Source of the DNA: Clostridiaceae bacterium
Lineage (GTDB): Bacteria > Bacillota > Clostridia > Acetivibrionales > DUMB01
Assembly: GCA_012840085.1 (NCBI GenBank)
Contig: DUMB01000014.1
Coordinates: 1 to 64,000, forward strand
Length of the DNA: 64,000 bases
Reading direction: 5' to 3'
The position numbers and the translations under genes are program-made. A model generated the notes under the pieces. That model saw only the letters and a list, made by a program, of their open reading frames with translations. It was not told the DNA's origin and made no database searches. Positions 7,589-46,000 of this stretch are shown in pieces (within the stretch, counting starts at the first letter, position 1; the number at the start of each line of letters is the position of its first letter).

Positions 7589-7590
7589 TG

Positions 7591-8151: not shown

Positions 8152-8261
8152 GGCATGTTGCTCCTTCCTGAAAAAAATTGATGAAATTATTATACCAACT
8201 TTTCGAGGCCAAAGTCCATACAATTCAAGTCCATATAATTAAACAAACCGTGAAAAAGTGG

Positions 8262-8290
8262 TTGACATATTTTGCATAGTATAATATAAT
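8262..8290 (+). promoter_or_regulatory. Promoter of tdh-kbl
   Basis: A consensus sigma-A promoter: TTGACA at 8262-8267, a 17-base spacer, and TATAAT at 8285-8290. It points to tdh, 128 bases downstream. Confidence 0.85.
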
Positions 8291-8291
8291 G

Positions 8292-8335
8292 AACAATAAG
8301 TTCAATATAATATAGTAAACAATAAGTTCAATATA
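8292..8335. promoter_or_regulatory. Two perfect 18-bp direct repeats, probable operator
   Basis: The sequence aacaataagttcaatata occurs at 8292-8309 and again at 8318-8335, a spacing of 26 bases, immediately after the -10 box of the tdh promoter. The position over the transcription start suits a repressor; the divergent XRE/cupin protein is the obvious candidate. Confidence 0.6.
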
Positions 8336-8418
8336 CAAAACTAATGAAGTCTTTTTATAAAGAGGTTATCCCATTGGAATAAAAAACATGTAAATATTAT
8401 GTGAGGGTTGTGGTTTAT

Positions 8419-9450: not shown

Positions 9451-9595
9451 TATATAAGGTCGTTTTGGCACTGTGTGTATCAACATAAAGAAGGACTTTG
9501 AACTGAGAAAATTATGCTGATGCTGCGGCGGGATGTAGGCGAATGCCTTTCGTTCCAGTATATGCCGCCATCGATAGAATGGAGTGAATTAAAAA

Positions 9596-17132: not shown

Positions 17133-18143
17133 ATGGTCACTTCGAGGGAACTGGTTTACAGGACATTAGAACTGAAAAACAATATCAGAGTTCCAAGGGA
17201 ATTATGGATCTTGCCGTGGGCAAATATGAACTATCAGGAGGAGCTGGATAAAATCAGGCGGGATTTTCCTGACGATATAGTTTCAGTGCCCGGATTCTGT
17301 GAAAAGTCACCCAGGATTAGAGGTGACCAGTACGAGGTAGGGGAATACATGGATGAGTGGGGCTGCATATTCACTAACAGGCAGCGGGGGATCATCGGCG
17401 AGATAAAAAACCCCATAATCCGGGATGAGGATTGGGCGGATGCAGATGACTTTGAATTCCCGGAGGAATTAATACATATCGACAAAGACAAGATAAATGA
17501 ATTCTGCCAAAACACCGATAAATTCGTTTTGCCTGCCGAATATGCGAGACCCTTTGAAAGGCTGCAGTTTCTCAGAGGAACGGAACAATTGTATATTGAT
17601 TTGGCCTACAGACCCCCAAAGATGTTTGAATTTATTGAGAAGCTCCATGATTTTAATTGCCGGATGCTCAGTGCATGGGCGGAAACAGATGTGGACGCCC
17701 TGACTATAATGGATGACTGGGGTTCCCAGGTGAACCTGCTGATAAGCCCGGAGTTATGGGTTGAAATTTTTAAGCCGATGTACAGAGATTATATCGAGAT
17801 TGCACATAAGCACGGAAAGAAGGCGTTCATGCATTCTGACGGCAACATACTGGCCATAATTCCCCATTTGATAGATATCGGACTGGATGCCTTGAACTCC
17901 CAGATTTTTTGCATGGGTTTGGAAAACCTCAAGCAATTTAAAGGGGAAATTTGTTTTTGGGGAGAGATTGACAGACAGTGGCTGCTGCCGAGAGGCACCG
18001 AAAAACAAATAGAAGATGCGGTGAAATCGGTTAAGGAAAGCCTGTGGACAAACGGCGGCTGTATCGCTCAATGTGAATTCAGCATAGGTGCCAACCCTAA
18101 AAACGTTTATAAAGTTTTTGAAGTATGGGACAAGTTGGTGTAG
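17133..18143 (+). CDS. URO-D/MtaA-superfamily protein (uroporphyrinogen decarboxylase-like)
   Basis: This 336-residue TIM-barrel protein belongs to the uroporphyrinogen decarboxylase/corrinoid methyltransferase superfamily, seen from the C-terminal pattern KAFMHSDGNILAIIPHLIDIGLDALN and the LLPRGTEKQIEDAVK segment. It is not a haem enzyme by context: no other tetrapyrrole genes are near. Methyltransferases of the MtaA type usually carry HxCG in this position for zinc; here the motif is HSDG, so zinc methyltransferase chemistry may be lost. The ATG at 17133 follows aggag. Such proteins recur in clostridial glycan-use loci, but their function is unknown to me. Related copies are at 26397 (decayed) and 26941. 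Confidence 0.75.
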   Translation: MVTSRELVYRTLELKNNIRVPRELWILPWANMNYQEELDKIRRDFPDDIVSVPGFCEKSPRIRGDQYEVGEYMDEWGCIFTNRQRGIIGEIKNPIIRDEDWADADDFEFPEELIHIDKDKINEFCQNTDKFVLPAEYARPFERLQFLRGTEQLYIDLAYRPPKMFEFIEKLHDFNCRMLSAWAETDVDALTIMDDWGSQVNLLISPELWVEIFKPMYRDYIEIAHKHGKKAFMHSDGNILAIIPHLIDIGLDALNSQIFCMGLENLKQFKGEICFWGEIDRQWLLPRGTEKQIEDAVKSVKESLWTNGGCIAQCEFSIGANPKNVYKVFEVWDKLV

Positions 18144-22514: not shown

Positions 22515-25010
22515 ATGTACGATATACATCTTATTTGCAATGCGCATATTGATCCGGTTTGGATGTGGACATGGGAAGAAGGGGCGGCGGAAGCCCTTTC
22601 TACTTTCAGGGTTGCTGCAGATTTTTGTGAACAAAACGATGGTTTTATTTTCAACCATAATGAGGCGATTCTGTATAAATGGGTCGAGGAGTATGACCCC
22701 AAGCTGTTTGAGCGTATCAAAAAACTCGTCCAGCAGAAAAAATGGCATATTATGGGCGGTTGGTACCTGCAGCCCGACTGCAACATGCCAAGCGGGGAGT
22801 CCTTTGTCAGGCAGATACTTGAAGGCAGGAAGTATTTCCTTGAAAAATTCGGGGTTAAGCCGACGACGGCAATTAATTTCGATTCTTTCGGGCACACGCG
22901 CGGGCTGGTGCAGATTATGAAGAAGGCAGGCTATGACTCCTATATCTTTTGCCGCCCTGAAGACAGCAATTGTCAACTGCCCGCGGACGATTTCATCTGG
23001 ATTGGCTATGATGGCTCCGAACTGGTTTGCCATAGAGGCTTTAATTCTTACGAATCCCATAGGGGCAAAGTTGACCAGAAAATTAGAAGATGGCTTGATA
23101 AATATAAGGGAAAAAGGGTCGGTTTGGTTTTATGGGGAATTGGAAATCACGGAGGCGGTCCTTCAAAGGTCGATTACCAGAAAATAAAAGAGCTTTCGGC
23201 GTCCCTACAGGACTACAGGTTGATTGATTCCACACCTGAGGCTTATTTTGATGCCTTAAGGAAAGATACGCCGGATTTGCCGAAATTTGATAAGTCGCTG
23301 AATCCTCAGTCTGTAGGATGCTATACATCTCAGAACAGGATAAAGAAAAAACACAGGTTGCTGGAAAATGAGCTGTACATGGTGGAAAAAATGTCATCTG
23401 CAGCTTCAATACGGGATCTCATGGAATATCCCAAAAAGGAAATCCAGGAAGCGATAAATGACCTTATGTTCCTTGAATTCCACGACATATTGCCGGGATC
23501 GTCTATCCAGGCGGTGGAGGAAGACGCTTTAAGGCTTGCGGACCATGCTCTGGAAATTATTTCAAGGCTTAAGACAAAAACCTTCTTTGCACTTTCAAGA
23601 AACCAAAGGCGCGCTGAAGAGGGAGAAATTCCGATTTTGGCATATAACCCATTTCCTTTCAAGGTTAAAGGCATCTTCGAATGTGAGTTCCAGTTGGCGG
23701 ACCAAAACTGGAGCAAGCAATTCTCTTTCCCGATTGTCTATAAAAATGGTGAAAGAGTGCCTTGCCAGGTAGAACACGAAGCGAGCAATTTCAATATAGA
23801 CTGGAGGAAGCGCAGCGTATTTTATGCCGAGCTTGAACCCAGCAGCATGAATCGCTTTGACTGCAAAATTGAAATGCTCCCGAAAAAGCCTGAATACACA
23901 TTAAAAGCCGAAAACGGAAGAATTGTGTTTACCACTAAAGAGCTGGAAGTTGTCATAAACTGTGAAACCGGCCTCATTGACAAATATGCTGTTAACGGTT
24001 ACAACTTCTTGGCTGAGAACTCATTCAGGGCTTTGGTCATGTCGGACAGTGAAAATTCCTGGGGAAATGACACGCTGTCCTATAAAAATGTTGAGGGTTG
24101 CTTCAGGTTGATGAGCCGGGAGGAAAGCACCGAATTTTCCGGCATATCCGAAGGGTTGATAGATTCGGTAAGGATCATAGAGGACGGCGAAGTGAGGACT
24201 GTAGTCGAAGCTTTGTTCAGATACAACAACTCTTTTATATGCCAGAGGTATAAACTGCCTAAATACGGCACTGAAATAGAAGTCGATGTAAAAGTATATT
24301 GGAATGAAAAGATGAAAATGCTGAAACTGTCGATGCCTACAACATTGAAAGATCCCAAATATATCGGGCAGGTGGCGTATGGAGTGGAGGATTTAACAAA
24401 TAATGAGAGGGAGCTGGTGGCGCAAAAATGGACAGCGGTCATATCTGAGTCTCAGGATGTCGCTTTTACCTGCATAAATGACGGCGTTTACGGATCAGAC
24501 TTTAACTACGGTGAAATGAGGATGTCTCTGGTGCGCTCGCCGGGATATTCAGCGGGGTGCTCTGATTTTTATATAAGAGATCCCAAAATCATGCCCCAAG
24601 ACCGTTTTTCTTTCTATATTGACCAGGGGGAAAGGGACTTCTGCTTCTGGCTCAACGGAGGGAAGCTCAAGGAAAGGATTGAAGAAGTTGACAGGGAAGC
24701 TCTGGTGCATAATGAAAAGCCCTTTGTCCTTTCATTTTTCCCTTCCGGCGATGGCGCAGAGGAAAAGCCTTTGATCCTTTTAGAAGATGACGTGGTTGTG
24801 ATGACCGCATTCAAAAAATGCGAAAAATCCGATGATTACATCATAAGGTTGTTTGAGCCTACCGGCACCGCACGCTCCACCAAAGTGAGCATACCTTTAT
24901 ATGAAATAAACCAGGAAGTGAAGCTGAACGGTTTTGAGATAAAGACGCTGAAGCTTGATATAGTTGGCAAAAAGTTGGTTGAAACCGACCTCATGGAAGG
25001 CATCGGCTGA
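22515..25010 (+). CDS. Alpha-mannosidase, glycoside hydrolase family 38
   Basis: This 831-residue enzyme hydrolyses alpha-mannosides by a retaining, zinc-dependent mechanism. Visible residues are the zinc ligands His11 and Asp13 in CNAHIDPVWMWTWEEG and the predicted nucleophile Asp123 in NFDSFGHTRGL; FLEFHDILPGSSI is the later conserved histidine-aspartate motif. The C-terminal half is the beta-rich domain of the family. No signal peptide is present, so it acts in the cytoplasm on imported oligosaccharides. I start at ATG 22515 because ggagg lies just ahead; an ATG at 22503 overlaps that site. It follows the importer genes by 148 bases and is probably fed by them. Confidence 0.92.
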   Translation: MYDIHLICNAHIDPVWMWTWEEGAAEALSTFRVAADFCEQNDGFIFNHNEAILYKWVEEYDPKLFERIKKLVQQKKWHIMGGWYLQPDCNMPSGESFVRQILEGRKYFLEKFGVKPTTAINFDSFGHTRGLVQIMKKAGYDSYIFCRPEDSNCQLPADDFIWIGYDGSELVCHRGFNSYESHRGKVDQKIRRWLDKYKGKRVGLVLWGIGNHGGGPSKVDYQKIKELSASLQDYRLIDSTPEAYFDALRKDTPDLPKFDKSLNPQSVGCYTSQNRIKKKHRLLENELYMVEKMSSAASIRDLMEYPKKEIQEAINDLMFLEFHDILPGSSIQAVEEDALRLADHALEIISRLKTKTFFALSRNQRRAEEGEIPILAYNPFPFKVKGIFECEFQLADQNWSKQFSFPIVYKNGERVPCQVEHEASNFNIDWRKRSVFYAELEPSSMNRFDCKIEMLPKKPEYTLKAENGRIVFTTKELEVVINCETGLIDKYAVNGYNFLAENSFRALVMSDSENSWGNDTLSYKNVEGCFRLMSREESTEFSGISEGLIDSVRIIEDGEVRTVVEALFRYNNSFICQRYKLPKYGTEIEVDVKVYWNEKMKMLKLSMPTTLKDPKYIGQVAYGVEDLTNNERELVAQKWTAVISESQDVAFTCINDGVYGSDFNYGEMRMSLVRSPGYSAGCSDFYIRDPKIMPQDRFSFYIDQGERDFCFWLNGGKLKERIEEVDREALVHNEKPFVLSFFPSGDGAEEKPLILLEDDVVVMTAFKKCEKSDDYIIRLFEPTGTARSTKVSIPLYEINQEVKLNGFEIKTLKLDIVGKKLVETDLMEGIG

Positions 25011-25038
25011 GCTGAAGATTGAGGTGACTAAATACTAT

Positions 25039-26217
25039 ATGGAAGAACTTAAAACGCTGTCGGATGAATGGATATGTACACACCTTGGGGATGAATATGA
25101 GAAATATTCGGGAGCGGTTGTACCGCCGATTTTTCAGAATTCACTCCATGTTTTCCCTAGCGTTGAAGCAAAAGAAGCTTTCGATAGCAACCGGGAGGAA
25201 GGCCGATATTTTTACGGGAGGGTAAGCAATCCCACCGTAGAAATTGTTGAAAGGAAGATAGCCGCGCTGGAACGGGGTGATGCTGCCAAATGCTTCGGTT
25301 CAGGCATGGCAGCCATCTCTTCCGCATTGCTTTCATGTCTTTCGGCAGGCGACCATGTGATTGCCGTAAAGAATGTATATGGCCCTACCAATACCTTTTT
25401 GACAGAGTATATGAGCAGGTTTAACATTGACACTACATTTGTAGAAGGCGACAAAGTCAGCGAATTTGAAGATGCTATCAGGAAAAATACAACTGTAATT
25501 TACCTGGAGAGCCCTACGTCCTTCAATATGATGCTTCAGGATTTGAAAGAGGTCGCCTGTCTTGCGAAGAAACACAATATAACCACTATTATAGATAACA
25601 CGTGGTGTACGCCGATTTTCCAGAAACCGCTGGAGTTGGGAATCGACATAGTGGTACATACGCTTTCCAAGTACTTTGGCGGACACAGCGATATTATCGG
25701 AGGCGTCGTGGTCAGCAGGAAAGACATCATTGACCGTATCGCTTCGCGGGAAAGGGAGCTTTTGGGAGGGATTCTCCATCCCTTTGAGGCATGGCTGGTG
25801 CTGAGAGGCATACGTACCTTGCCGGTAAGGCTGAGGCAGCACCAGGAAAACGCTATGAAGGTTGCTCAATTTCTTGAGAATCACCCCAAAGTAAGCAGGG
25901 TGTATTATCCGGGACTCCCCAGCCATCCTCAGTATGAGCTTGGCAAGAAGCAGATGAAGGGATATTCGGGTTTGATGAGTTTTGAAGTTAAAACCACATC
26001 TGATAAATTAAAGCAGTTTGTGAACTCGCTGAAGATGTTCAAAATAGGTGTGAGCTGGGGCGGTTTTGAAAGCCTGGTTATTATACCCTGCGCGTCATGG
26101 AGTGATGATCAGTGCAAAGAATACGGCCTGTCTAAAACTATGGTGAGAATAGCGGTGGGGCTGGAAGATGCCGACGAACTGATTAATGATTTATCCGACG
26201 GGCTGGCTATTGTATAA
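25039..26217 (+). CDS. Cys/Met-metabolism PLP-dependent enzyme (cystathionine synthase/lyase-like)
   Basis: This 392-residue protein is of the trans-sulfuration family, fold-type I PLP enzymes such as cystathionine gamma-synthase, gamma-lyase, beta-lyase and methionine gamma-lyase. The Schiff-base lysine is Lys211 in HTLSKYFGGHSDIIGG; the phosphate-binding region is FGSGMAAISSALLS, and YYPGLPSHPQYELGKKQMKGYSG is also typical. Which reaction it catalyses cannot be told from sequence. The ATG at 25039 follows gaggtgac, 28 bases after the mannosidase stop, so it appears to be in the same transcript, an odd partner for a glycan operon. A terminator-like hairpin follows. Confidence 0.85.
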   Translation: MEELKTLSDEWICTHLGDEYEKYSGAVVPPIFQNSLHVFPSVEAKEAFDSNREEGRYFYGRVSNPTVEIVERKIAALERGDAAKCFGSGMAAISSALLSCLSAGDHVIAVKNVYGPTNTFLTEYMSRFNIDTTFVEGDKVSEFEDAIRKNTTVIYLESPTSFNMMLQDLKEVACLAKKHNITTIIDNTWCTPIFQKPLELGIDIVVHTLSKYFGGHSDIIGGVVVSRKDIIDRIASRERELLGGILHPFEAWLVLRGIRTLPVRLRQHQENAMKVAQFLENHPKVSRVYYPGLPSHPQYELGKKQMKGYSGLMSFEVKTTSDKLKQFVNSLKMFKIGVSWGGFESLVIIPCASWSDDQCKEYGLSKTMVRIAVGLEDADELINDLSDGLAIV

Positions 26218-26295: not shown

Positions 26296-26396
26296 TTTTA
26301 GTATATTTTTGCGTGAAATAGTCCTGTATGGGAATTGAGTAGATTCAATATTATAAAAGCAATTTCTGTTTTACAGGTTGATCTTTAGATGTTTAT

Positions 26397-26736
26397 TTCC
26401 ACAGTCGTGGCTACATATACGATATAATACCGGATTTTATTGAAATAGGCGTCGATATGCTGAATATAAGCCAACCTAATGTATTTGACATAGCAAAAAT
26501 GGGCATGGAATTTGGCGGCAAAGTATGTTTTATATGCCCCGTAAGTTATCAGACTACGGCGGTTTCAGGCACGAAAGAGGATATATACAATGATGTAAAA
26601 AAGCTGATAGACAGCTTTGGCCGCTTTAACGGGGGCTTGATATGATGAAGAATATCATTCCATTGGCATGACCGAAGAAAACTATCGTAGTTGCATTGAA
26701 GCTTCCAGAGAACTAGGTAAATACACTGAATACTGA
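26397..26736 (+). pseudogene. Decayed C-terminal fragment of a URO-D-like gene
   Basis: From 26397 the frame gives FHSRGYIYDIIPDFIEIGVDMLN and continues to a stop near 26645. After a frameshift, another frame continues with YDEEYHSIGMTEENYRS and ends with GKYTEY and a TGA at 26734-26736. Both pieces match the C-terminus of URO-D/MtaA-type proteins, so this is the tail of a gene broken by a frameshift and lacking its N-terminal two thirds. It lies just upstream of an intact relative at 26941 and may be the remains of an older tandem copy. Confidence 0.75.
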
Positions 26737-26940
26737 CAGGACTATTATTCTGTTTTCTAAAAGAGCCTGTGCGTAGTTTTTTCTTTACTTTGTTAAATAA
26801 ATTGACAAATAAAAATGATTACAATATAATTAAATCAATTAACAAATTCAACGGTTTTTATGATCTTAATTGGCTGCAAGTCTTCAAGATCCGAGCAGTA
26901 TGTAGAAGAAATGCGATATTGGTCAGGGAAGGAGGACTCT

Positions 26941-28077
26941 ATGGGGAGAAGGGAAGATTTTCAAAAGATACTTAATCATGAACAACCTGAAAAGCTTATA
27001 ATTGATTTTGGAGGAAACCCGTTATCAAGCATGGAAGGGCAAAGTATGTACAGACTGCTTGAATTTCTCGGATATGACGTGACCGACAAAATAGAGGTCA
27101 TGCCTTTCGGCAGGGTACGCAGGCTGGATGAAAGGCTGTTAAAGCACTTTGATATTGATACGAGATCGGTTGGTACGATTTTAAGGCCCCAAAAGTCCCT
27201 GTACCAAAGAGTTTCCGACAATGAATATATTGATGAATGGGGAATAAGGCGCAGATACACGGGTATGTATTGGGATGTAATTGAAGAGCCTCTAAAAGGT
27301 GCTACGGTTGATGACCTTGAAAAATATCAGTGGCCCGATCCTGAATCTGTTGATATGAATGAGATTGAAGAGTATGCAAGACAGGCAAAAAAACTCTATG
27401 AAGAAACCGATTATGTAATATGTGCCGAACATCCCGTGTACGGAATATTTGAGCTGGGATGCTGGATGTGCGGCTTTGATGATTTTTTGTTGAAGATGGC
27501 AATCGAACCGGATTTTGTAAAGAGGTTCTTCGAAATAGTGTTGGACTACCAGAAGAAGATAATAGAAATATATTACGGTGCCCTGGGCAAATACATACAC
27601 TATACATCTAGCGGCGATGATTTTGCTACCCAGTCAAGCTTATTTATATCACCGGATATGTTCCGTGAGCTGATCAAACCGTATTTCAAAGAAAGGGTAA
27701 GCTATACGAAAAAGTTTACCAATGCGGCGTACCTGCATCATTCCTGTGGGAGTGTGTTCCCGATTATAGACGATCTTATAGACTGTGGGGCAGATATACT
27801 GAATCCGATACAGCCCAAGGCGAAGGATATGCAGCCTGAAAATCTGAAAAAGACATACGGAAACAGGATTGTGTTCCACGGAGGTATAGACACCCAGGAA
27901 ATATTGCCCTTTGGGACAAAGGAGAGCATAGAAAAAATTGTGAAAGATACCATAGAAATAATGAACAGGGATGGAGGGTATATATTTGCAGCAGCACACA
28001 ACATACAGGAGGATGTGCCTCCTCAAAACCTGGTTTATATGTTAGAAGCAGCAATAAAATTTGGAAAAGGATCTTAA
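26941..28077 (+). CDS. URO-D/MtaA-superfamily protein
   Basis: This 378-residue TIM-barrel protein of the uroporphyrinogen decarboxylase-like superfamily retains a HSCG motif (AYLHHSCGSVFPIIDDLIDCGADILNPIQP), the zinc-ligand position of corrinoid methyltransferases such as MtaA. FHGGIDTQEILPFGTKE is also typical. The ATG at 26941 follows aaggagga. No corrinoid protein or methyltransferase partner is encoded nearby, so methyl transfer is only a possibility. It opens a tightly packed seven-gene operon: the HAD gene begins 19 bases after its stop. A role in sugar or glycan-derived compound breakdown is inferred from neighbours. Confidence 0.78.
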   Translation: MGRREDFQKILNHEQPEKLIIDFGGNPLSSMEGQSMYRLLEFLGYDVTDKIEVMPFGRVRRLDERLLKHFDIDTRSVGTILRPQKSLYQRVSDNEYIDEWGIRRRYTGMYWDVIEEPLKGATVDDLEKYQWPDPESVDMNEIEEYARQAKKLYEETDYVICAEHPVYGIFELGCWMCGFDDFLLKMAIEPDFVKRFFEIVLDYQKKIIEIYYGALGKYIHYTSSGDDFATQSSLFISPDMFRELIKPYFKERVSYTKKFTNAAYLHHSCGSVFPIIDDLIDCGADILNPIQPKAKDMQPENLKKTYGNRIVFHGGIDTQEILPFGTKESIEKIVKDTIEIMNRDGGYIFAAAHNIQEDVPPQNLVYMLEAAIKFGKGS

Positions 28078-28096
28078 AGGAGATGAAGTCAACATT

Positions 28097-28903
28097 ATGG
28101 AAATTATAATTAAACTTCCGGATATGAGGCCAAGGCTAAAAGCAGCGCTTTTTGATTTCGACGGAACCCTTTCGACCTTGAGGTATGGCTGGGAAAACAT
28201 CATGGAGCCTTTGATGCTGGAGATGATATCCGGAAGCCAACCTGCCGATGAAAACCTGATCGGCGAAGTAAGAGAATACATAGACAAATCCACAGGAATT
28301 CAGACGATTTACCAGATGCAGTGGCTTGCAGAAGCGGTAAAAAGGTATGGGAGGAACAAGGGCCTGCCCGATGACCCCTGGTGGTATAAGGCCGAATACA
28401 ACAGAAGGCTGATGGAAATGGTTGAAAAGAGGAAGGCAGAGATTTTAGAAGGGCATAAATCTCCTAAAGAGTATCTGATTAAAGGCAGCAAAGCTTTTCT
28501 TGAGGCGCTGCTTAATAAGGGCATAGAAATTTATGTGGCAAGCGGCACGGACCATCCCGATGTAACAGCTGAGGCTGAAGTTCTCGGACTTAGCGGCTAT
28601 TTTAAGGAAATAGCGGGGGCGCCTTTGGGCAAGGCCGACTGCTCCAAGGAAGCCGTTTTGAGAAAGCTGGTGGATGTAAATAAACTTGAAGGGCCGGAGC
28701 TCATGGTAATCGGCGACGGAAGGGTGGAGATCGCCCTGGGAAGAGAAGTGGGAGCCATAACCCTTGGAGTGGCAAGCGACGAGGAAAAGCGCAGCGGAAT
28801 AAACGAGACAAAGAGAAAGAGGCTTGTCAATGCTGGTTCCCATGCAATTGTAGGGGATTTTGAAGAATTGGATGCTATACTTGAGTGGTTAAAGTTAAGC
28901 TGA
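28097..28903 (+). CDS. HAD-superfamily hydrolase
   Basis: This 268-residue protein carries HAD motif I (ALFDFDGTLS, nucleophile Asp and acid/base Asp), motif II (YVASGTD) and the late acidic motif MVIGDGRVEIALGREVGAITLGVASD. It is probably a sugar-phosphate phosphatase or phosphomutase-like enzyme. The ATG at 28097 is about 14 bases after aaggag, a long spacing; no better start is visible, although the frame is open back to 28061. It sits between the URO-D-like gene and the DHS-like gene and is likely to act on an intermediate of the same pathway. Confidence 0.8.
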   Translation: MEIIIKLPDMRPRLKAALFDFDGTLSTLRYGWENIMEPLMLEMISGSQPADENLIGEVREYIDKSTGIQTIYQMQWLAEAVKRYGRNKGLPDDPWWYKAEYNRRLMEMVEKRKAEILEGHKSPKEYLIKGSKAFLEALLNKGIEIYVASGTDHPDVTAEAEVLGLSGYFKEIAGAPLGKADCSKEAVLRKLVDVNKLEGPELMVIGDGRVEIALGREVGAITLGVASDEEKRSGINETKRKRLVNAGSHAIVGDFEELDAILEWLKLS

Positions 28904-28939
28904 TAAGCACTATTTGAATCACTATTTGCAAAGGAGGCA

Positions 28940-29947
28940 ATGCATGTGAAAGACAATAATATTATTGGTGACCAGCTTGATTTTTCGAATATAAAAACTT
29001 ACCCGGTAAAGGAAAGAAGGAATCTTGTAACCATTGAGAATATGGCAAGGCCGGGGGAGGACAGCATCCCGGACTGGGGCGGAGAAGATTTCGATGAGCT
29101 TGTAGAACGCATAATAGAGGCCAGGACTGCCGGAAGGCCGGTTATATGGTCGATGGGAGCCCACGTTATTAAAAACGGCCTGTCGAGGTATATCATCGAG
29201 CTGATTAAAAGAGGGTTTATAACCCATGTTTCGGGCAACGGGGCGGTCAGCATCCATGACTTCGAGCTGGCATTCAACGGAGGGACATCCGAAGACGTGC
29301 CCACAGCGATAGAAGACGGTTCATTTGGGATGTGGGAGGAAACGGGAAGATGGATGAATGAAGCCCTGAAGACCGGCGCTGAAAAGGGCATGGGATACGG
29401 CGAAAGCCTTGCGGTTTATGTGGAGAACTATCCGGAAAGGTTCCCTTACAAAGATGACTGCGTTTTCTACCAGGCTTACAAAAACGGGGTGCCAGCAACG
29501 TATCATATAGCCATCGGCACCGATATCATCCACCAGCATCCGACGGTGGATTTCGGAGCCATCGGAGCGACCAGCGGAGCGGACTTTCGCAAGTTTTGCT
29601 ATTCGGTATCAAGGCTCGAAGGAGGGGTGTTCCTGAACTTCGGTTCCGGGGTAATAGGGCCTGAAGTGTTTCTAAAAGCCCTTTCAATAGCCAGGAACCT
29701 CGGATACGCTACATACAGGATAACTACAGCCAATTTCGACCTGGTAGATCTTGGCGACTACCGCTCCAAAATTGGATATAACGACCCCCATTATTATTAC
29801 AGGCCCAGGAAGAACATAGTGAACAGGCCTACCAGCAGGGGTGGCAAGGGCTGGCATTTCTGCGGCGACCATAAGGTGACGATACCCAATCTTTACAAAA
29901 AATTGATAAGCAGGCTTCCGGAGGTGAAGAAGGGTGTCATCGGCTGA
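28940..29947 (+). CDS. Deoxyhypusine-synthase-like protein of unknown function
   Basis: This 335-residue protein has segments reminiscent of the DHS-like NAD-binding fold: VIWSMGAHVIKNGLSRYIIEL, ITHVSGNGAVSIHDFELAF followed by NGGTSEDV, and LEGGVFLNFGSGVIGPEVFLK. The KHH-type active-site lysine motif of true deoxyhypusine synthase is not seen, and bacteria generally lack hypusine, so another reaction is likely. The ATG at 28940 follows aaggaggc. It overlaps the PfkB kinase gene by 14 bases, so it is tightly coupled to sugar-kinase and isomerase genes. I recall relatives of this family beside such kinases in other bacteria, but know no assigned function. Confidence 0.5.
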   Translation: MHVKDNNIIGDQLDFSNIKTYPVKERRNLVTIENMARPGEDSIPDWGGEDFDELVERIIEARTAGRPVIWSMGAHVIKNGLSRYIIELIKRGFITHVSGNGAVSIHDFELAFNGGTSEDVPTAIEDGSFGMWEETGRWMNEALKTGAEKGMGYGESLAVYVENYPERFPYKDDCVFYQAYKNGVPATYHIAIGTDIIHQHPTVDFGAIGATSGADFRKFCYSVSRLEGGVFLNFGSGVIGPEVFLKALSIARNLGYATYRITTANFDLVDLGDYRSKIGYNDPHYYYRPRKNIVNRPTSRGGKGWHFCGDHKVTIPNLYKKLISRLPEVKKGVIG

Positions 29948-30998
29948 CTTTACCACATTTAACGGTATAGACGGAAAAAGGCTGGAGGAAATTCTAGAGG
30001 GCATTTCTAAAATAAAAGTGGCCCTGATAGGCGACATCTGCCTGGATGTATACTGGAGAGCGGATATGACTAAAAGCGAGCTTTCAAGGGAGACTCCCCA
30101 TTTCCCCCTGCCTGTCGTTGAAGAACGGATGTCCCCTGGAGGCGGCGGCAACGCGGTGGCCAACATAGCAGCCCTTAAACCGGCCAAGACTCATGTATTG
30201 AGCGTTGCGGGAAACGATTGGAGGGGAAAGGCGCTGATCCAGGAATTCATAAACCGGGGCATTGACACCAGAGGCATAATCATCAGCGATAAAATAGTGA
30301 CAAATGCCTACTGCAAGCCCATGAGGAAAGGAATTTCAGACTTGGAATATGAAGACCCCAGGATCGATTTTGCCAACTATGATGTGCTTCCTCCAGAGGA
30401 GGAAGAAAGGCTGCTGGCAAGTTTGGAAGAGGTTGCCGGAAAAATTGATGTGTTGTGCGTCTCGGATCAGTTGGCCTATGGTTGTATAACACAGCGGATT
30501 AGGGAAAAGATTATAGAATTGGGCAGGCAAGGCCTGACGGTTGTTGCAGACAGCCGGGACAGGATAGCGATGTATACGGATGTCATATTAAAGCCTAATG
30601 AAGTAGAGGGGTGTAGGGCGGTATACGGCGGCAACGCCCCTAAAGGGGCAGCCTTTGAGGAGCTGCTTGCTGCAGCAAGACTTCTGTCACAAAGAAACAA
30701 TTCAAGGGTCTGTATGACTTTGGGTCCGAAAGGGTGCATTTATGTAGATAAAAAGAAGGCTGCATATGTACCCTCTTATGCTGTACAAGCTCCCATAGAC
30801 ACCTGCGGAGCGGGGGATACTTTCCTTGCGGCCTTTTCCTGCGCTTTGGCGGCAGGAGCGGAGGGCTTTGAAGCTGCTTCCTTTGCAAACATGGCTGCTG
30901 ATGTAACCATAAAGAAGGTTGGGATGACAGGTACTGCAGCCCCCGAAGAAATAAGAGCAAGATATTGTGAAATAAGGAATAATAATGGTTTAATATAG
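29934..30998 (+). CDS. PfkB-family carbohydrate kinase, RfaE/HldE kinase-like
   Basis: The 354-residue protein is a ribokinase-fold sugar kinase. VALIGDICLDVYWRADMTKSE resembles the start of heptose-phosphate kinases of the RfaE1 type, GGGGNAVANIAAL is the PfkB signature 1 region, and DTCGAGDTFLAAF holds the catalytic Asp and anion hole. The nucleotidyltransferase domain found in HldE is absent. It starts at GTG 29934, inside the end of the DHS-like gene, after ggaggtgaagaagg. Its neighbours, a phosphoheptose-isomerase-like protein and a HAD hydrolase, suggest a seven-carbon or related sugar phosphate as substrate; this is inference. Confidence 0.8.
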   Translation: MSSADFTTFNGIDGKRLEEILEGISKIKVALIGDICLDVYWRADMTKSELSRETPHFPLPVVEERMSPGGGGNAVANIAALKPAKTHVLSVAGNDWRGKALIQEFINRGIDTRGIIISDKIVTNAYCKPMRKGISDLEYEDPRIDFANYDVLPPEEEERLLASLEEVAGKIDVLCVSDQLAYGCITQRIREKIIELGRQGLTVVADSRDRIAMYTDVILKPNEVEGCRAVYGGNAPKGAAFEELLAAARLLSQRNNSRVCMTLGPKGCIYVDKKKAAYVPSYAVQAPIDTCGAGDTFLAAFSCALAAGAEGFEAASFANMAADVTIKKVGMTGTAAPEEIRARYCEIRNNNGLI

Positions 30999-31013
30999 TT
31001 TACGGGTGATTTG

Positions 31014-31994
31014 ATGAAGAAACTGTTAGGAATTGATATTGGCGGCACCAAATGTGCTGTTATCCTGGGAAACTATGACTGCGAAGCCACGGGCAATGTA
31101 ACAATTATTGACAGGGTGGCTTTTCCCACAGAAGTGGATAAAGGCCTTGACCATACCCTAGGCAGGATGATTGGAAGTATTGATGCCATATTAAAAGCGA
31201 ATAATTGGAAAGCTGAGGAGCTATACGGCATCGGCATAAGCTGTGGAGGCCCTCTTGACAGCAAAAGGGGAATAATCATGTCACCTCCCAATCTTATAGG
31301 TTGGGATGATGTTCATATAGTGGAAATGCTTGAAAACAGGTATGGAATAAAAACAAAGCTCCAGAACGACGCTAACGCCTGTGCCCTGGCAGAATGGAAA
31401 TTCGGTGCAGGAAGGGGATACAGGAACGTGGTGTTCCTTACCTTCGGCACAGGCATGGGTGCAGGCCTTATACTTGACGGGAGGCTTTATACCGGTACAA
31501 ACGACATGGCCGGGGAGGTAGGCCATATAAGGCTGGCTGACAACGGGCCTGTAGGATATGGCAAATCAGGCTCCTTTGAAGGATTCTGCAGTGGAGGAGG
31601 CATTGCGCAGCTGGCCAGGATGAAGGTGCTGGAGAAACTGCAGTCGGGAGAAAAGATTTCCTTTTGCAAGAGCATGGATGAGCTGTATCGCCTTGACGCG
31701 AAGATTGTCGGCGATGCGGCTGAAAAAGGGGATGAGCTGGCAAAGGAGATTTACAGGATATCGGGACGCTATCTCGGCAAAGGACTTTCAATACTGATAG
31801 ATATTTTGAACCCTGAGATTATCATTATAGGCAGCATTTTTACAAGAAGCAGGGAATTGTTGTGGCCTGAGGCTCATGAAGTGATAAAAAGGGAATGCCT
31901 TAGCTATTCGCAAAAGGTATGCAAGGTTGTCACTTCGGGCCTTGGGGAAAAGATCGGAGATTATGCTGCCCTGGCGGTAGCTGCAAACGAATAG
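31014..31994 (+). CDS. ROK-family sugar kinase
   Basis: The 326-residue protein has the ROK phosphate motif LGIDIGGTKCAV, the NDANACALAEWKFGAGRG catalytic region and TFGTGMGAGLILDGRLYTG. The CxCGxxGCxE zinc motif normally found in ROK kinases is missing: after GHIRLADNGPVGYG the sequence reads KSGSFEGFCSGGG. It may therefore belong to an unusual ROK subgroup. The ATG at 31014 is preferred over the adjoining TTG. It lies 15 bases after the PfkB kinase and 13 before the SIS gene, giving one operon two sugar kinases. The substrate is unknown. Confidence 0.82.
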   Translation: MKKLLGIDIGGTKCAVILGNYDCEATGNVTIIDRVAFPTEVDKGLDHTLGRMIGSIDAILKANNWKAEELYGIGISCGGPLDSKRGIIMSPPNLIGWDDVHIVEMLENRYGIKTKLQNDANACALAEWKFGAGRGYRNVVFLTFGTGMGAGLILDGRLYTGTNDMAGEVGHIRLADNGPVGYGKSGSFEGFCSGGGIAQLARMKVLEKLQSGEKISFCKSMDELYRLDAKIVGDAAEKGDELAKEIYRISGRYLGKGLSILIDILNPEIIIIGSIFTRSRELLWPEAHEVIKRECLSYSQKVCKVVTSGLGEKIGDYAALAVAANE

Positions 31995-32007
31995 GAGGAA
32001 TGTGACG

Positions 32008-32661
32008 ATGAAGCGGGCGGTAAGGGAAATTTTCGAGGAATTGTTTTCAAGAATACCCGAGCTGGAGGTTTGCAAAGAGGATATAGAAAATGCCTTCAGC
32101 CTTATAAAACAGTGCTACGAAAACGGAGGAAAGGTGATGACTTGCGGGAACGGAGGAAGTGCAGCAGACTCCGAGCATATCGTTGGGGAGCTGATGAAGG
32201 GATTTGTCCTGAAGCGTAAAATTTGCGACAGGGATAAGGAAATAATAAGGGCGGCTTTTCCGGAAGAAGCGGACTACCTGTGTGAAAACCTCCAGGGCGT
32301 CTTGCCTGCAATTTCGCTGGTGAGCCAGACATCTATTTCAACGGCTTTCATCAATGATGTAGCCGCCGATATGGTATATGCCCAGCAGGTTTATGGGTAT
32401 GCCCGCAAAGGGGATATTTTGATAGGCATCAGCACATCGGGAAATGCCGCCAATGTAGCCAATGCCGTAAAAGTAGCAAAGGCTTTCGGGGTTAGGACTA
32501 TCGGAATGACTGGAAAGGAGGGAGGGCTGCTGAAGGATTTGTGCGACGTCACCATCAAAGTGCCCTCTGATATAACCTTCAAAATCCAGGAGTATCACCT
32601 TCCGGTGTACCATGCGATATGCGCCGCAGTTGAGGCGGAGTTTTTCGGTGAACAGTCATGA
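32008..32661 (+). CDS. SIS-domain sugar isomerase, GmhA (phosphoheptose isomerase)-like
   Basis: The 217-residue protein has the SIS-domain phosphosugar motif CGNGGSAADSEHIVGELMKGF and GISTSGNAANVANAVKVAK, both typical of sedoheptulose-7-phosphate isomerase (GmhA) and its DiaA relatives. It is slightly longer than usual GmhA (about 190-200 residues), with an added segment near residues 70-100. The ATG at 32008 follows aggagg with normal spacing. It overlaps the ROK regulator gene by four bases. With a RfaE-like kinase nearby but no nucleotidyltransferase, it more likely serves sugar-phosphate catabolism than heptose activation; that is inference. Confidence 0.82.
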   Translation: MKRAVREIFEELFSRIPELEVCKEDIENAFSLIKQCYENGGKVMTCGNGGSAADSEHIVGELMKGFVLKRKICDRDKEIIRAAFPEEADYLCENLQGVLPAISLVSQTSISTAFINDVAADMVYAQQVYGYARKGDILIGISTSGNAANVANAVKVAKAFGVRTIGMTGKEGGLLKDLCDVTIKVPSDITFKIQEYHLPVYHAICAAVEAEFFGEQS

Positions 32662-33821
32662 ATAACAGCGCAAGAAATTCGGCTTATACCAAGTCATATA
32701 ACAGAAAGCTCATAACAGGCATTATTCACAGGGAGCCTGTATCGAGGGCTGAATTGGCGAGAAAAACAGGCCTTACCCGGGCTGCGGTGTCAATTATTGT
32801 GGATGAGCTTATTTCTGACGGATTTGTCGTCGAAAAAGGGGTTGCGGAGGCAGAACTGGGGAGAAAGCCGGTGCTGCTGGACATTAACCCCGAAAGCTGC
32901 TATGCTTTGGGTCTGAACATATCCAGGGATAAATGCTCCCTGGGGATTGTGAATTTAAAAGGCGAGCTGAAAGCAAGAAAAGAGATAGATCTCTCGAGTG
33001 CGGCGGATGCAGGTGAAGCTTTGAAAATTATATCCGAAGAAATAAAAAGGATGCACCTTGAAACAGGTACGGCTCCTAAGAAACTGCTGGGGCTTGGCAT
33101 AAGCACGCCCGGGCCGGTCGATGTGTTCAGCGGCACTATAATCAATCCTCCTAATTTCGACATGTGGAAAAATGTAAACATTGTAGGGGAACTTAAAAAA
33201 GAGTTTCCCTGCAATATTCTGCTGGAGAACAATTCTGCGGCCCTGGCTTTAGCGGAGAAATACTATGGGCTGGGTAAAAAATTCAGCAATTTTATACTGA
33301 TGGTAGTTGACACGGGCATAGGCTCCGGGATTGTAATAAATGACAAGCTTTACAGGGGATTCGGGGGGTTTGGAGGGGAGATCGGACATACCTCCATAAA
33401 CGTGAACGGAGACTTGTGCAGCTGCGGCAACGTGGGCTGCCTTGAAGTGTATGCTTCAATGCCCGCCGTTTTAAAGAAGGCAAAAAGAATTGAGCCAGGC
33501 ATATCTTCCTGGAATGAAATAGTAGATAGGGCTGAAGCAGGTGATACGCGCTTTTTGGAGATAGTTGAAGAAGAGGCAAGGTACCTGTCGGCCGGCATAG
33601 TTAATGTCGTCAATATACTTGAAATTGAAGCTGTCGTTCTTACAGGGGATATCTTCTATAAACACGGGATAATCATGGACAGTCTGTCCAGGTATGTCAA
33701 TGAACGGGCTATGACGAGAAAGGTCCACCGTGTGGGGCTATACGCCTCCGAGATAGCAAAAAATGCAGATATCATAGGGGCAGCCACAATCGTTATTGAT
33801 GATTTTATTCGTTTATATTAA
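32658..33821 (+). CDS. ROK-family transcriptional repressor (NagC/XylR type)
   Basis: The 387-residue protein combines an N-terminal winged helix-turn-helix (HREPVSRAELARKTGLTRAAVSIIVDELI) with a ROK sugar-binding domain. The full zinc motif is present (CSCGNVGCLEVYAS), and the DTGIGSGIVINDKLYRG region is family-typical. It overlaps the SIS gene by four bases and ends the operon, so it probably represses this cluster until a pathway sugar binds. No operator could be identified. Confidence 0.88.
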   Translation: MNNSARNSAYTKSYNRKLITGIIHREPVSRAELARKTGLTRAAVSIIVDELISDGFVVEKGVAEAELGRKPVLLDINPESCYALGLNISRDKCSLGIVNLKGELKARKEIDLSSAADAGEALKIISEEIKRMHLETGTAPKKLLGLGISTPGPVDVFSGTIINPPNFDMWKNVNIVGELKKEFPCNILLENNSAALALAEKYYGLGKKFSNFILMVVDTGIGSGIVINDKLYRGFGGFGGEIGHTSINVNGDLCSCGNVGCLEVYASMPAVLKKAKRIEPGISSWNEIVDRAEAGDTRFLEIVEEEARYLSAGIVNVVNILEIEAVVLTGDIFYKHGIIMDSLSRYVNERAMTRKVHRVGLYASEIAKNADIIGAATIVIDDFIRLY

Positions 33822-40007: not shown

Positions 40008-43000
40008 ATGCAGAAAAACAAAAGGTTATTGTCGCTTATACTTATCGTAGTTATAGCAGTTACGCAACTACCTGTATGGGCTGTACAGCTACATGCGTCT
40101 GCTTCACAACTACCTGCGCCGGCGCTGGCCTCAGGCACAGGATATTCAACAGGAAATGCGCCGGGATTTTCAAGTACACTATCCGGTTTTTCAAGCAGGG
40201 ATGACCTGATGGAGGTTGCGGATGAGGTGTATGAAACCAGTCAGAGCATGGCACTTGCAAGTACCGGAGAGAGTGAGGATCCTGGCCTTCAATACTCCTT
40301 ATCCTTAAAAATTGAACTAAATGAGCTGAGGCGGTCCATGTCGGTGCAAGCGGATATCAACAGCCTGGGTTTGGATGCTGCGGGGGGTGAGCTGATAGTA
40401 ACCCTTTATGACAATAAAGACAGGATCCCAAAATTGATTGACTTTTTTACTGCTGAAGTACAAAGCGGTGTCATGGAGGATACGCCGGATACTCCCGAAG
40501 CAATAGGAGTTCTATCCTTTGACGGCGCCGATCCGGAAAATCTGATGGTAAGCGGGGTGATCTGCCGTTCCCTTGACGAACCGCTGCCATTGTCGGCTGC
40601 AGTGAGTTATGATGAGGATGGTTTTAGCATTGTTCCTGTCTCTTTCTGTACTCTGGCTGCTACAGATGTCACAAAAACCTCTGCCGTACTGCACGGACAG
40701 GTGGTGGTGGAAGACGGAACAGAGCTTAATGCGGCAGATTTTGGCTTTATAGTCTTTGACAGCCTTCAAACTGATGCCGAAGAAATGGATGAGGATGGTA
40801 ACCCTGTCGGCGTGATTTTGCCGGATGTACTGCCTGCGGCATCAATCACTTCAGACGGCCGCTTTTCATTACCATTAACCAATCTGGAATCCGGCAGGGA
40901 GTATCAATACATGGCGGTTGGTATAGTTAATAAAACTTATGGAGAGCCAATGAGCTTTACTACAAAAAGCGATCTGCCGGCGGTACAGACCAATGCTTCC
41001 GCTGAAATTAATTCGGAAATTAATGTTGTAACATTAAGAGGAACGATAACTGACACAAAAGGGTTTGAGATAAAGGAGAGCGGTGTGATGTTCGGAACCG
41101 ACCCGGATTCCGATTTAACGCAAAAATCGCCAAATCAATCCGGTCTGTCCGGAGCTATTACATGCTATATCGGACAATTGGATCCGGGAAAAACATATTA
41201 TTATAGAGTATATGCAAAAAGCTCCGCAGGTATCGGGTACGGTAAAACCTATAGCTTTACCATGCCTGCAGTTCTGCCCGAAATTAGAAGACGGCCTTCA
41301 GTTACTTTCGACCCGGTAACATGGAAGGCCACATTTAGTGCTGAAATTCTCAGTAATGGCGGTGCTGAAATTACAGACTTCGGTTTTAGATTAAAAAACA
41401 TGAATGAGTGGAAGTACTTTCCAGCACAAATAGATCCGGATACAAAAATCTTCACTTTGGAATTAGAAGGACAAGAGCAAATTCCCATTGGCTATATCCA
41501 AGTGGAAGCCTATGTGACCAACACGGTAGGAATGGCGACAATGGCTGCTACCGACGGAATTCTGACTCCTTCCAGAGCCCAGGTGAATGCCGGCCTTGAC
41601 AATACTTTAATAACAGTGTCCTCAGCGGTACTGAAGGGGGATATTACAATAGTACCCGGTTCAGAATGCCAGCAAAGAGGTTTTGAATACAAAGCTGTTT
41701 CCGATAATCTCTGGATAGAAGCCGGTATGGAGACAGGAACATTCGGCAGTGGTGAGTATACTTTTACCCTGGAGGGCTTGCGGCCTTATACCGAATATGT
41801 TTTCAGAGCAAAGGCACAAACCCTTGCAGGCTGGTCTTACAGTCCTGAAATTGGTTTTACAACCATTTTCAGTGACAATGGAAAAGAAACTGCCTATCAA
41901 ATGAAGATGGACGGAAAAACCGGGAAAGAAATTTTAGAAATTCTGAAAAACAATTTACACCAGGATATTTCTGAGGCATGCGTGAGCCTGAAGTTCGCCG
42001 GATTTGACGCCTCAAGTATTGCCGCTGCTCTGAAACCGGCCCCATATAATGCTAAATATGATGGGGTAGCTAAGGGTTTGCTGACAGCTGGATTTGACGC
42101 TTCCACAGCGGCAAAGGCATTAATGTCTGAGTATTCGGACGTCTTTGAGTATATAGGCGGTGATGCTGCCGGGATAATTACAGAAACCCTGGATGAACAG
42201 GGTTTCCCGAAGGATGATATAATTAAAGCTTTAAGAGAAGTTTTTAATATTAAAATAGATTATATCGGTTTATATTTAGACGTAACAAACGATACTGTAT
42301 ATGATTCCCTTATCCGTACATATGGAGCGTATGCATTTTCCGCAGATTTCTGGCGTGAACACGATACTGAACAATATACCGACGGGTATATTAGACAACT
42401 AACAACAATTTTAAAAAACTGCACCACTTTCAGCGCCGGGGATATTGCGGCTGTGCTTAAGGAGGTTTATCCCCAGATTACCGCAGCTCAATTCGTTGCG
42501 AACTGCCGTAATCTTTATCCTGCAGTCAGCGATATGGGTGACGCTTTAATACAGGCTTTTAAAGTAGACCCATCGATGGCGGCAAAGGAAATGTACACAT
42601 ATTCTGACATATATACAATCGAAAAAATTAAGGATTGGCTAATCAATAAACGGGGGCTTAGCGCTTCTCAGACGGTAAAGGTATTGCTGGGCTTGCCCAA
42701 CACTGAACCTATGAATACCGTTCCTGTGCTGATGAAAAATAATTTGGGTATCACAACTGCCATTGATGCGGCCAAGGCGATGCACGCAGCCGGCTGGGGG
42801 GAAGAGAAAGGTTATGGATACTGGCGTCCGCTTAAGCTGCTTATCGATCATTATGACTGCAAACCATCTGATTTGATAGAAATCATGAAGGAGCTGGGGT
42901 TTTCTTCTTTAGTTGTAGCCCAGCAAATGGAGGCATTAAAAAATAACAATTATATTACTTCATGGAGAACCGAGTACAGAGCTCTGGGCTATACGGCCTC

Positions 43001-46000
43001 CGATCTGGCCGGCTGGTGCAAAACTAACTCCTATTATAATGAAGCCGTTCAGGCAGTGATTATCATGGGAGAAGCGGGTTACAGCCTTGACGAGATTACC
43101 GCGGCACTGAAGCAGGTCTATGAATTAGATGCCAATGGCGCACTGACAATACTCCAATATGATACATTCACTGATAATGAACCATATAAATGGTGGACTG
43201 TGGCACAGGCTATAGCCTCTGTCGACCTTGCTTACAATACCAGCACCCTTGATACGGTAATAGCTCAAATGAAGGAGAACGGGGCCACAGCTGAGCATAT
43301 CGCCAATACGTTGAAGGAAGCCTTTGCTGTGAAGGAGCCTGGCAATGTGGCGAAGTATCTGAAAGGGCTCGGCTACGGTAAGGACGTCGTGCTCCATGCT
43401 CTGGCAAAGAGCTTCAGAACCCTGAAGAATCCAGAGCTTATACAGATGCTTGCGCAGGTTCTTGGGGATAACTTCTCAGAAGATCCGATAAATAATATGG
43501 AGCTAATACTCAGCATTTATGAAAGCGTCAAAGGAAAGCTTAACCATGCGGTGAACGGGGTTATTCTGCTGCATGATAGTGGATTCGGACTCATGGATAT
43601 TACCCGTGTGCTCAAAAATGACATTGACGCTCTGAATAATGTTGCTGCACCGCTGACAGCTTTTGAGGCAGGGCAGCTTCTGCTTGGCATGAAGGCTTAC
43701 GGGCTTTCATACGATAAGCTTGATATTTTCGCTGCTATTCAGGAAGTATACGGCGTGAACTTCATGCTGGAAACGGTGGTTGATTATAAAAACCATAAAA
43801 AATATTCGGCGAAAACTGCCATCACTAAGTTAAGCGAAGATTTCGGCATCGATACGCCTTCCGCCGCAGCTATGTGTCTCAAAGAGGCAGGTTATACTAT
43901 GGCTGAGGTGCTGGAGGGTTTTATTGACGGATACTCTTCAGAAAAAAGTATCTATAAAATTGATTTACTGAGGCAGGTGTTAGTGGATGTCTATCCTGAG
44001 GAACAGGCACCGTTGAAAGCCATTATGGAGGCTATGGGAATAACTGATCCCGGCCATGCTTCTGAGGCCTTTTACAGAGCAGGTTTCTCGATGAAGGAAA
44101 TTATTATGATCCTGCAAAATGAATATGGACTGTCCTCCGGCGAGGTAACCGAGTGTTTGTATGAAAGAAATTTTGAGAACATTGTGGTGAATGTTGAGGA
44201 AGTATATGGCGGAAATGGTTACCTGGACTTTATTCTATACAGAAAGAAGCAAGGAGACGATATTTCACAACTATTTGACTGGCTGTATAAGAAGTTCAGG
44301 GTTGCTGATATATCCCAAATTGTGAATACCCTAAAACTTGCGGGCTTTTCAAGCGAGGATGTCATTACTCTTTTGTATGAAAAGCGTAAGGTTTCAGACG
44401 ACGAAACTATATTACAGGTACAGGATGTTTTCGGAGAAAACAGTATTCAGAGTTATATTAACCATAGAAAAGACAAAGGTGACAATATTACTCAGGTATT
44501 TAACTGGCTGCAAAAGTTCGGTGTTAAGGATGTTCAGAGCATTATCAGCTATTTAACCCAGGCAGGGTATTCCAGCAGCGAACTTATCGAGTTTTTGTTC
44601 AGCGGGTATAATCAGGTGGATAATGCCATAATTGATGTTGAAAACACCTTTGGCAAAAACTCCATTGTGGATGTATTAAAACAGAAAAAAACACAGGGCT
44701 GGAATATTGGTATTCTTTATTCGTATTTGGTGGATACTTTAAAAATTACGAATCTGACCCAAATTGCCAATTACTTGAAAACTGTGGGCTACACAGGTTA
44801 TGAAATCATGAATTTACTGTATCAGAAAATCACAGACACGAGCCGATATGGAGAAATCATTGCAGCAGTGCAGGCGGCGAATGCGGATAAAGGAACGGAT
44901 GCAATTCTGGAGTTTCTCCGGGCGAAGAAAGAAGCCGGTGAGGCTCTTAGCCAACTGTATAATTGGCTGAAAGATAAGTTTAATATAACGGATATGACGC
45001 AGACAGTCACCTATTTAAAGGCAGTGGGCTATACAAGCAGTGATATTATGGATTTTCTGTATCAAGTAATCACGGAACCGAGCCGTTATGGAGAAATTGC
45101 TGCAGCGGTGCAGGCAGCGGATGCGGCTAACGGAACGGATGCAATTTTGGAATTTCTCTGTGCTAAGAAAGAAGCTGGTCAGAGTCTCACCCAAATGCAT
45201 TATTGGCTGAAAGATAAGTTTAATATAACGGATATGACGCAGACAGCCACCTACTTAAAGGCAGTGGGCTATACAAGCAGTGAAATTATGGATTTTCTGT
45301 ATCAAGTAATCACGGAACCGGGCCGTTATGGAGAAATTGCTGCAGCGGTACAGGCGGCGAATGCGGCTAACGGTACGGATGTAATTTTGGAATTCCTCCG
45401 GGCGAAGAAAGAAGCTGGTGAGGGTCTTAGCCAACTGCATGATTGGCTGAAGGATAAGTTTAATATAACGGATATGACCCAGACAGTTGCCTATTTAAAG
45501 GCAGCGGGCTATACAAGCAGTGAAATTATAGATTTTTGGTGTGCCCGTTACAGCGGTGAACCGGATGAGTACGAAGAAGTGATTGAGGCAATTCAGGCAG
45601 CCTCCAATACGGATGTCACTCTGGACTTCCTCAGGGAGAAGAAAACTCAGGGTGAAGGTCTAATTCAGCTTTATGGCTGGATGGAAGACAAATTTGGTAT
45701 AAGCGATATCAATAAGGTTTCTTCCTACTTCCTGGCTTTAGGATACAACAGCAGTGAAATCATCGAATTTTTATATCAGAAGATTAACGATACAAGCCGA
45801 TATGAAGAGATTGTCGCAGCGGTGCAGGCAGCATCGGCATCGACCGGTTCAGACACCATACTGGAATTTCTGAAATACAGGAAAGGTAAGGGTGAGGGTC
45901 TTACACAGTTTTACAGCTGGCTGAAAGACAATTTTGGCATAAGCGATATCAACAGGATTGCTCCCTATTTTATGGCTTTAGGATACAACAATAGTGAAAT

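Follow-up and report, generated by a model that had tools for sequence, protein, structure and literature searches.

Gene content and organization of the locus

The window analyzed here is a stretch of 64,000 nucleotides (contig DUMB01000014.1, positions 1 to 64,000, of assembly GCA_012840085.1) from a Clostridiaceae bacterium. Seven of its genes, at positions 26941-33821, include some whose products resemble enzymes of heptose metabolism and one for a protein predicted to adopt the deoxyhypusine synthase (DHS) fold, referred to below as DHSL. All seven lie on the forward strand (Table 1), with neighbors either 7 to 36 bases apart or overlapping by 4 to 14 bases. A tight, same-strand array had been reported in a preliminary description of this DNA; its genes and coordinates were confirmed, and Pfam and NCBIfam searches supported six of the identities proposed there.

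Table 1. Genes and putative control elements of the operon

Feature	Position	Strand	Remarks
Sigma-A type promoter TTGACA-17-TATAAT	26802..26830	+	12/12 consensus matches; upstream of URO-D gene
Operator-like site TTTGTTAA, left half	26789..26796	.	Immediately 5' of -35 box
Operator-like site TTAACAAA, right half	26839..26846	.	Inverted partner of TTTGTTAA
URO-D / MtaA-CmuA superfamily protein	26941..28077	+	First gene, outside conserved core; PF01208 81.6 bits
HAD phosphatase	28097..28903	+	Core module; PF00702; not GmhB-like
Predicted DHS-fold protein (DHSL)	28940..29947	+	Core module; NF052581 GSU2086 family
PfkB sugar kinase, RfaE/HldA-like	29934..30998	+	Core module; PfkB 96.7 bits
ROK sugar kinase	31011..31994	+	ROK 182.5 bits
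GmhA-like SIS isomerase	32002..32661	+	SIS_2 76.8 bits; longer central segment, zinc ligands kept
ROK repressor, NagC/Mlc-like	32658..33821	+	Winged HTH plus ROK domain, 193.6 bits

The URO-D gene has a ribosome-binding site (AGGAGG), and the promoter upstream of it is bracketed by the inverted pair TTTGTTAA/TTAACAAA. With this consensus promoter and its flanking inverted sites ahead of the URO-D gene, it is plausible that all seven genes are transcribed as a single unit. An Rfam scan found no RNA element at the operon. Similar sites were found at DHSL loci of other genomes (loci are numbered L). In L016, paired half-sites with spacing identical to that in the window lie 5' of the ROK kinase gene. 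L017 and L088 have the left half-site 5' of the HAD gene, and TTTGTTAAAT precedes TTGACAA in all three loci. Since these relatives share the control site despite a different first gene, the arrangement is in keeping with control of the module by the ROK repressor that it encodes, and the earlier suggestion of a sensor-repressor in the operon gains support from these conserved operator-like sites.

Similarity of the kinase and isomerase to heptose enzymes

The PfkB protein found its best model in RfaE domain I, with an alignment that is nearly full-length and a score of 153.7 bits against a cut-off of 345. The best models for the SIS protein were those of GmhA (146-152 bits against cut-offs of 209 and 276; 146.3 against 209.45 for the former), and in Bacteroidota-group genomes the cut-off of 209.45 is likewise missed by most canonical GmhAs. 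The zinc ligands of GmhA are H61, E65, Q175, and H183 (PMC5387315). All four are kept in the window protein, within GNGGSAADSEHIVGE and IQEYHLPVYH, and the ligand pattern is present in 20 of 21 SIS proteins of the module.

Other parts of the classical ADP-heptose pathway (GmhA, HldE or HldA/HldC, GmhB, and HldD) were sought in the window genome, which is 97% complete. Genome-wide, the model of the RfaE domain II nucleotidyltransferase (cut-off 181.5 bits) gave a best score of 21.8 bits and that of HldD (cut-off 274.6 bits) one of 137.4 bits, and when the HAD protein was searched against NCBIfam at E <= 0.01, no GmhB model matched. The preliminary description had remarked on the missing nucleotidyltransferase within the operon; its absence extends to the whole genome, and no nucleotidyltransferase and epimerase set over cut-off is encoded elsewhere. 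The window thus shares with the classical pathway a zinc-ligand GmhA-like isomerase, an RfaE domain I-like kinase, and a HAD phosphatase, but differs from it in having no nucleotidyltransferase or HldD over cut-off, a HAD protein that is not GmhB-like, and an extra enzyme with the predicted DHS fold. The substrate is likely a heptose; the sugar may be another, because both the kinase and the isomerase score under the HldE and GmhA cut-offs.

Conserved linkage and gene fusions

A scan of genome contigs returned at least 513 relatives of DHSL, from which 80 loci were kept and searched in six frames for neighboring genes. For a near/far control, the 37 kept loci whose sequence extends 7 kb or more to either side of DHSL were compared within 3.5 kb and at 3.5-7 kb. 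RfaE-like PfkB genes were found near DHSL in 28 of the 37 loci and far from it in none, HAD genes in 22 against 1, ROK repressor genes in 12 against 0, and SIS genes in 7 against 0. Chance linkage was rejected by this control. As independent evidence, several of these genes are also fused: HAD to DHSL in L030, L048, L070, and L076, SIS to HAD in L100, and PfkB to HAD in L174. The fusions bind the HAD, DHSL, SIS, and PfkB genes into one module. L174 itself carries DHSL, the PfkB-HAD fusion, and SIS consecutively at 6085-9723. The association of DHSL with RfaE-like PfkB, HAD, GmhA-like SIS, and ROK genes extends over the Clostridia, Halanaerobiales, and Chloroflexota, and over the Desulfovibrionales without HAD in the locus, so that linkage of DHSL with PfkB and GmhA-like genes, fusions included, is conserved beyond the window.

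SIS can also lie outside the locus: a GmhA-like protein was present in all nine quality-assessed DHSL genomes of the window's phylum, eight of these being matched in two stretches, as is that of the window. The ROK kinase gene stands beside SIS in seven loci (L016, L034, L069, L076, L090, L091, and L096), and rbs-type sugar ABC transporter genes stand beside the fuller module in seven relatives (L034, L076, L091, L094, L096, L100, and L132). In L028, L035, L044, L064, and L074, DHSL has no adjoining PfkB gene and is flanked by an acetyl-esterase-like gene and a protein of ~675 residues conserved there.

The URO-D gene behaves differently. It occurs within 3.5 kb of DHSL in 0 of the 37 loci and at 3.5-7 kb in 1, and the window genome holds 23 URO-D matches; as a core member of the module it was rejected on these grounds, and the functional step first assigned to it finds no backing. 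It may be a lineage-specific passenger or accessory. A broken URO-D fragment with one TGA inside (26349-26639) lies just 5' of the intact gene and points to duplication with subsequent decay at this site. A second URO-D-like gene (17133-18140) lies in an upstream sugar cluster with a GH106-like rhamnosidase, a GH38 mannosidase, and an ABC transporter, and URO-D genes also occur in the L174 stretch that carries DHSL, the PfkB-HAD fusion, and SIS.

Family, predicted fold, and conserved residues of DHSL

DHSL matches NCBIfam NF052581, the "GSU2086 family," at 415 bits (cut-off 250) across residues 12-320. It is not a new family, because NCBIfam already names NF052581, although without an assigned function, and its description as an interesting unknown was borne out in that sense. 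A Pfam search found no match to PF01916 (DHS) for DHSL or anywhere in the window genome, and DHSL itself gave only a sub-threshold ArgZ-like match. An AlphaFold2 model was built from an alignment of 56 relatives (mean pLDDT 93.9) and compared with known structures using Foldseek and VIA-align. The best PDB match was the C-terminal ornithine cyclodeaminase domain of AgrE/ArgZ (6lrg and 6juy; Z about 20), and DHS structures (1dhs, 7cmc, and 8put) followed with Z of 18-19 over 245-268 residues. On this model DHSL has the DHS fold. The earlier label "DHS-like" therefore stands as a statement of fold (Z about 19) and fails as an assignment to DHS by Pfam.

Among proteins of known structure, AgrE/ArgZ is closest to DHSL in fold and also its clearest relative in sequence, a profile search of PDB sequences reaching it across about 65 residues, but identity is about 15% and DHSL is linked to sugar genes instead of arginine genes. 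Similarly, DHS shares the fold but only 11-15% identity, and it is set apart by the missing PF01916 match and by the sugar-gene neighborhood of DHSL. Residues invariant in the 56-sequence alignment include R26, H75, H106, D107, E109, D195, E242, K246, R252, T263, D267, R288, R296, and H311, among which R26, R252, R288, and R296 would suit an anionic substrate. K291 is kept in 51 of 56 sequences, and a profile alignment to three bacterial DHS covers residues 17-110 only; the catalytic residues of DHS are Lys329 and His288.

These comparisons bear on two other readings of DHSL. That it is a true deoxyhypusine or homospermidine synthase with incidental sugar-gene linkage, as its fold might suggest, is scarcely credible: the Pfam DHS match is missing, linkage and fusions to sugar enzymes are conserved, and no lysine beyond position 246 is invariant. 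It is hardly more probable that DHSL uses a nickel-pincer nucleotide (NPN), like the NPN-dependent ornithine cyclodeaminase of NCBIfam. A weak TIGR00300/NF052526 match across about 60 residues and the presence of LarC in the window genome point that way. Of 49 genomes with DHSL, 24 gave a LarC match and 25 did not; the gene was seen in 7 of the 9 genomes of high quality, while those without a match include G307 and G323, which are 97-99% complete; a nickel-pincer role is unlikely for this reason, and NPN as an obligatory cofactor was rejected. A literature search returned one paper only on GSU2086 and none joining the DHS fold with heptose or dealing with an NPN-dependent ornithine cyclodeaminase. 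As far as this literature shows, the role proposed below is new.

Heptose neighborhoods and inverse distribution with HldD

In Geobacter sulfurreducens the gene order is hldE (GSU2085), GSU2086, gmhA (GSU2087), and Tn-Seq on electrodes gave fitness defects of similar size, -3.1, -3.2, and -3.7, for insertions in hldE, GSU2086, and gmhA, with polar effects possible (PMC5585712). The window DHSL belongs to the same family and has the same partners, an RfaE-type kinase and GmhA. The Geobacter HldE is annotated as bifunctional, however, and GSU2086 as part of a sugar biosynthesis operon, whereas the window lacks a nucleotidyltransferase and adds a ROK kinase, a ROK repressor, and a HAD protein. 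DHSL also stands beside heptose biosynthesis or glycosyltransferase genes in Solidesulfovibrio and Bacteroidota-group genomes: in a glycan cluster on a Solidesulfovibrio plasmid it follows a nucleotidyltransferase-RfaE kinase fusion and precedes a SIS gene, and in six Bacteroidota-group loci a family-9 (heptosyltransferase) gene lies about 2 kb away. A Chloroflexota plasmid carries HAD-DHSL-PfkB-SIS downstream of a sugar transporter. Seven-carbon chemistry is suggested for the module.

Recruitment of the GmhA-like and RfaE-like enzymes to a different sugar (a pentose, hexose, or deoxy-sugar phosphate), with DHSL as a catabolic NAD step, is a less likely account that still deserves weight. It is in keeping with the scores of the kinase and isomerase below their equivalog cut-offs, with the longer central segment of the SIS protein, and with the rbs-type transporters, Gfo/Idh dehydrogenases, and TIM-barrel isomerases near the module in L100 and L132. 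The intact GmhA zinc ligands speak against it, as do the association of the family with hldE/gmhA in Geobacter and with the nucleotidyltransferase-RfaE fusion in Solidesulfovibrio, and the transketolase gene that adjoins SIS on its 3' side in L018 and L125.

HldD is the textbook heptose epimerase. Its distribution was compared with that of DHSL across 51 genomes, using TIGR02197 for HldD, TIGR02198 for the HldE kinase, and TIGR00441 for GmhA. A strong HldE kinase was taken as one over 300 bits, a line drawn post hoc through well separated scores (at least 314 versus at most 187). In the genomes whose HldE kinase was strong by this measure, HldD over cut-off was found in 18 of 19 that lack DHSL and in 0 of 8 that contain it, with GmhA present in every one of both groups. 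Fisher's test gave p = 4e-6, a value that overstates independence because the DHSL-positive genomes fall in about three lineages; in the GmhA tree, six of the eight group in one clade and G504 and G534 stand apart, which makes about three switches. A separate nucleotidyltransferase adjoins the HldE kinase of DHSL-positive genomes in L165, L166, L169, L170, and L171. The pattern suggests replacement of HldD by DHSL.

Other features of the window

A glycine riboswitch (RF00504, 63.5 bits) at 1090-1194 lies 5' of the glycine cleavage genes gcvT, gcvPA, and gcvPB. A pyridoxal phosphate enzyme of the Cys/Met family (24964-26217) overlaps the end of the GH38 gene; its top-scoring model, under cut-off, is a bifunctional alanine/glutamate racemase. 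A single open frame of 4482 residues spans 40008-53456.

Proposed function of the module

The comparisons above establish the gene content, the predicted fold, the linked and fused genes, the kept GmhA metal ligands, and the opposed occurrence of DHSL and HldD. The reading that suits these results best is a ROK-regulated heptose-phosphate module in which DHSL would be an NAD-dependent, redox-neutral sugar-phosphate epimerase. We favor this reading tentatively, at somewhat less than even chances. Under ROK repression, the module would interconvert phosphorylated forms of a heptose or of a sugar much like it. The free sugar would probably be phosphorylated on entry by the ROK kinase, the GmhA-like isomerase would connect an aldose phosphate with sedoheptulose 7-phosphate, and the RfaE-like kinase and HAD phosphatase would add and remove phosphate at both ends of the sugar. 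DHSL with bound NAD would oxidize and then re-reduce one carbinol center of the phosphorylated sugar, presumably at C6, and so epimerize it. This would be the task that HldD performs on ADP-heptose in the classical pathway, carried out prior to nucleotide activation. Because the window genome has no heptose nucleotidyltransferase over cut-off, its DHSL would be expected to work without ADP-heptose, and a phosphorylated heptose would be its natural substrate, a choice that fits its several invariant arginines.

In DHS, NAD accepts a hydride from the substrate and hands it back within one reaction (PMC7226451 and PMC4725965), which matches the need of an epimerase acting by transient oxidation. 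The same chemistry tells against DHSL as a net NAD(P)-dependent sugar-phosphate dehydrogenase or reductase. Its fold relatives are NAD enzymes, which would suit such a role, but no cofactor-recycling partner recurs in most DHSL loci, and we consider net redox chemistry improbable.

As to the direction of flux, transporters and ROK control favor uptake in Clostridia, where a catabolic reading is plausible, and neighboring genes favor synthesis in Geobacter and relatives. A biosynthetic role in the window as well, in which heptose 1-phosphate is made and activated by an unrecognized nucleotidyltransferase for a surface glycan, with the ROK kinase and transporter serving salvage, would explain the kinase and phosphatase as the steps 7-P -> 1,7-bisP -> 1-P and would agree with the biosynthetic neighborhoods of Solidesulfovibrio and Geobacter. 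We judge it rather unlikely, given that no RfaE domain II homologue over cut-off occurs in the window genome and that the ROK repressor and sugar ABC transporters point to uptake.

Several points weigh against the epimerase assignment. Neither the kinase nor the isomerase of the window reaches its curated cut-off (HldE and GmhA, respectively), which leaves room for a sugar other than a heptose. No heptose nucleotidyltransferase was found in the window genome, and in a catabolic route it is then hard to see what the kinase and phosphatase pair would be for. NAD binding by DHSL is inferred, the profile alignment to bacterial DHS ending at residue 110. The exchange with HldD rests on about three lineages, and those without HldD may simply use D,D-heptose, with DHSL doing something else.

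Lipopolysaccharide cores and S-layer glycans draw on heptose pathways, as do the ADP-heptose signals that innate immunity senses. DHSL, a widespread family, is a testable candidate for a missing step in these pathways, being found with GmhA and HldE, showing a like mutant defect in Geobacter, and being present where HldD is missing. More broadly, and with greater doubt than attaches to the epimerase assignment itself, the GSU2086 family could be a second, unrelated heptose epimerase that acts before activation, replaces HldD in lineages with GmhA and HldE but without HldD, and, in Clostridia and their relatives, has been turned to a second use, that of channeling heptoses from the environment into central metabolism. 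If the proposed role is correct, DHSL would be, to our knowledge, the first sugar-converting enzyme on the deoxyhypusine synthase fold, and a fold of polyamine and amino-acid chemistry would extend to sugars.

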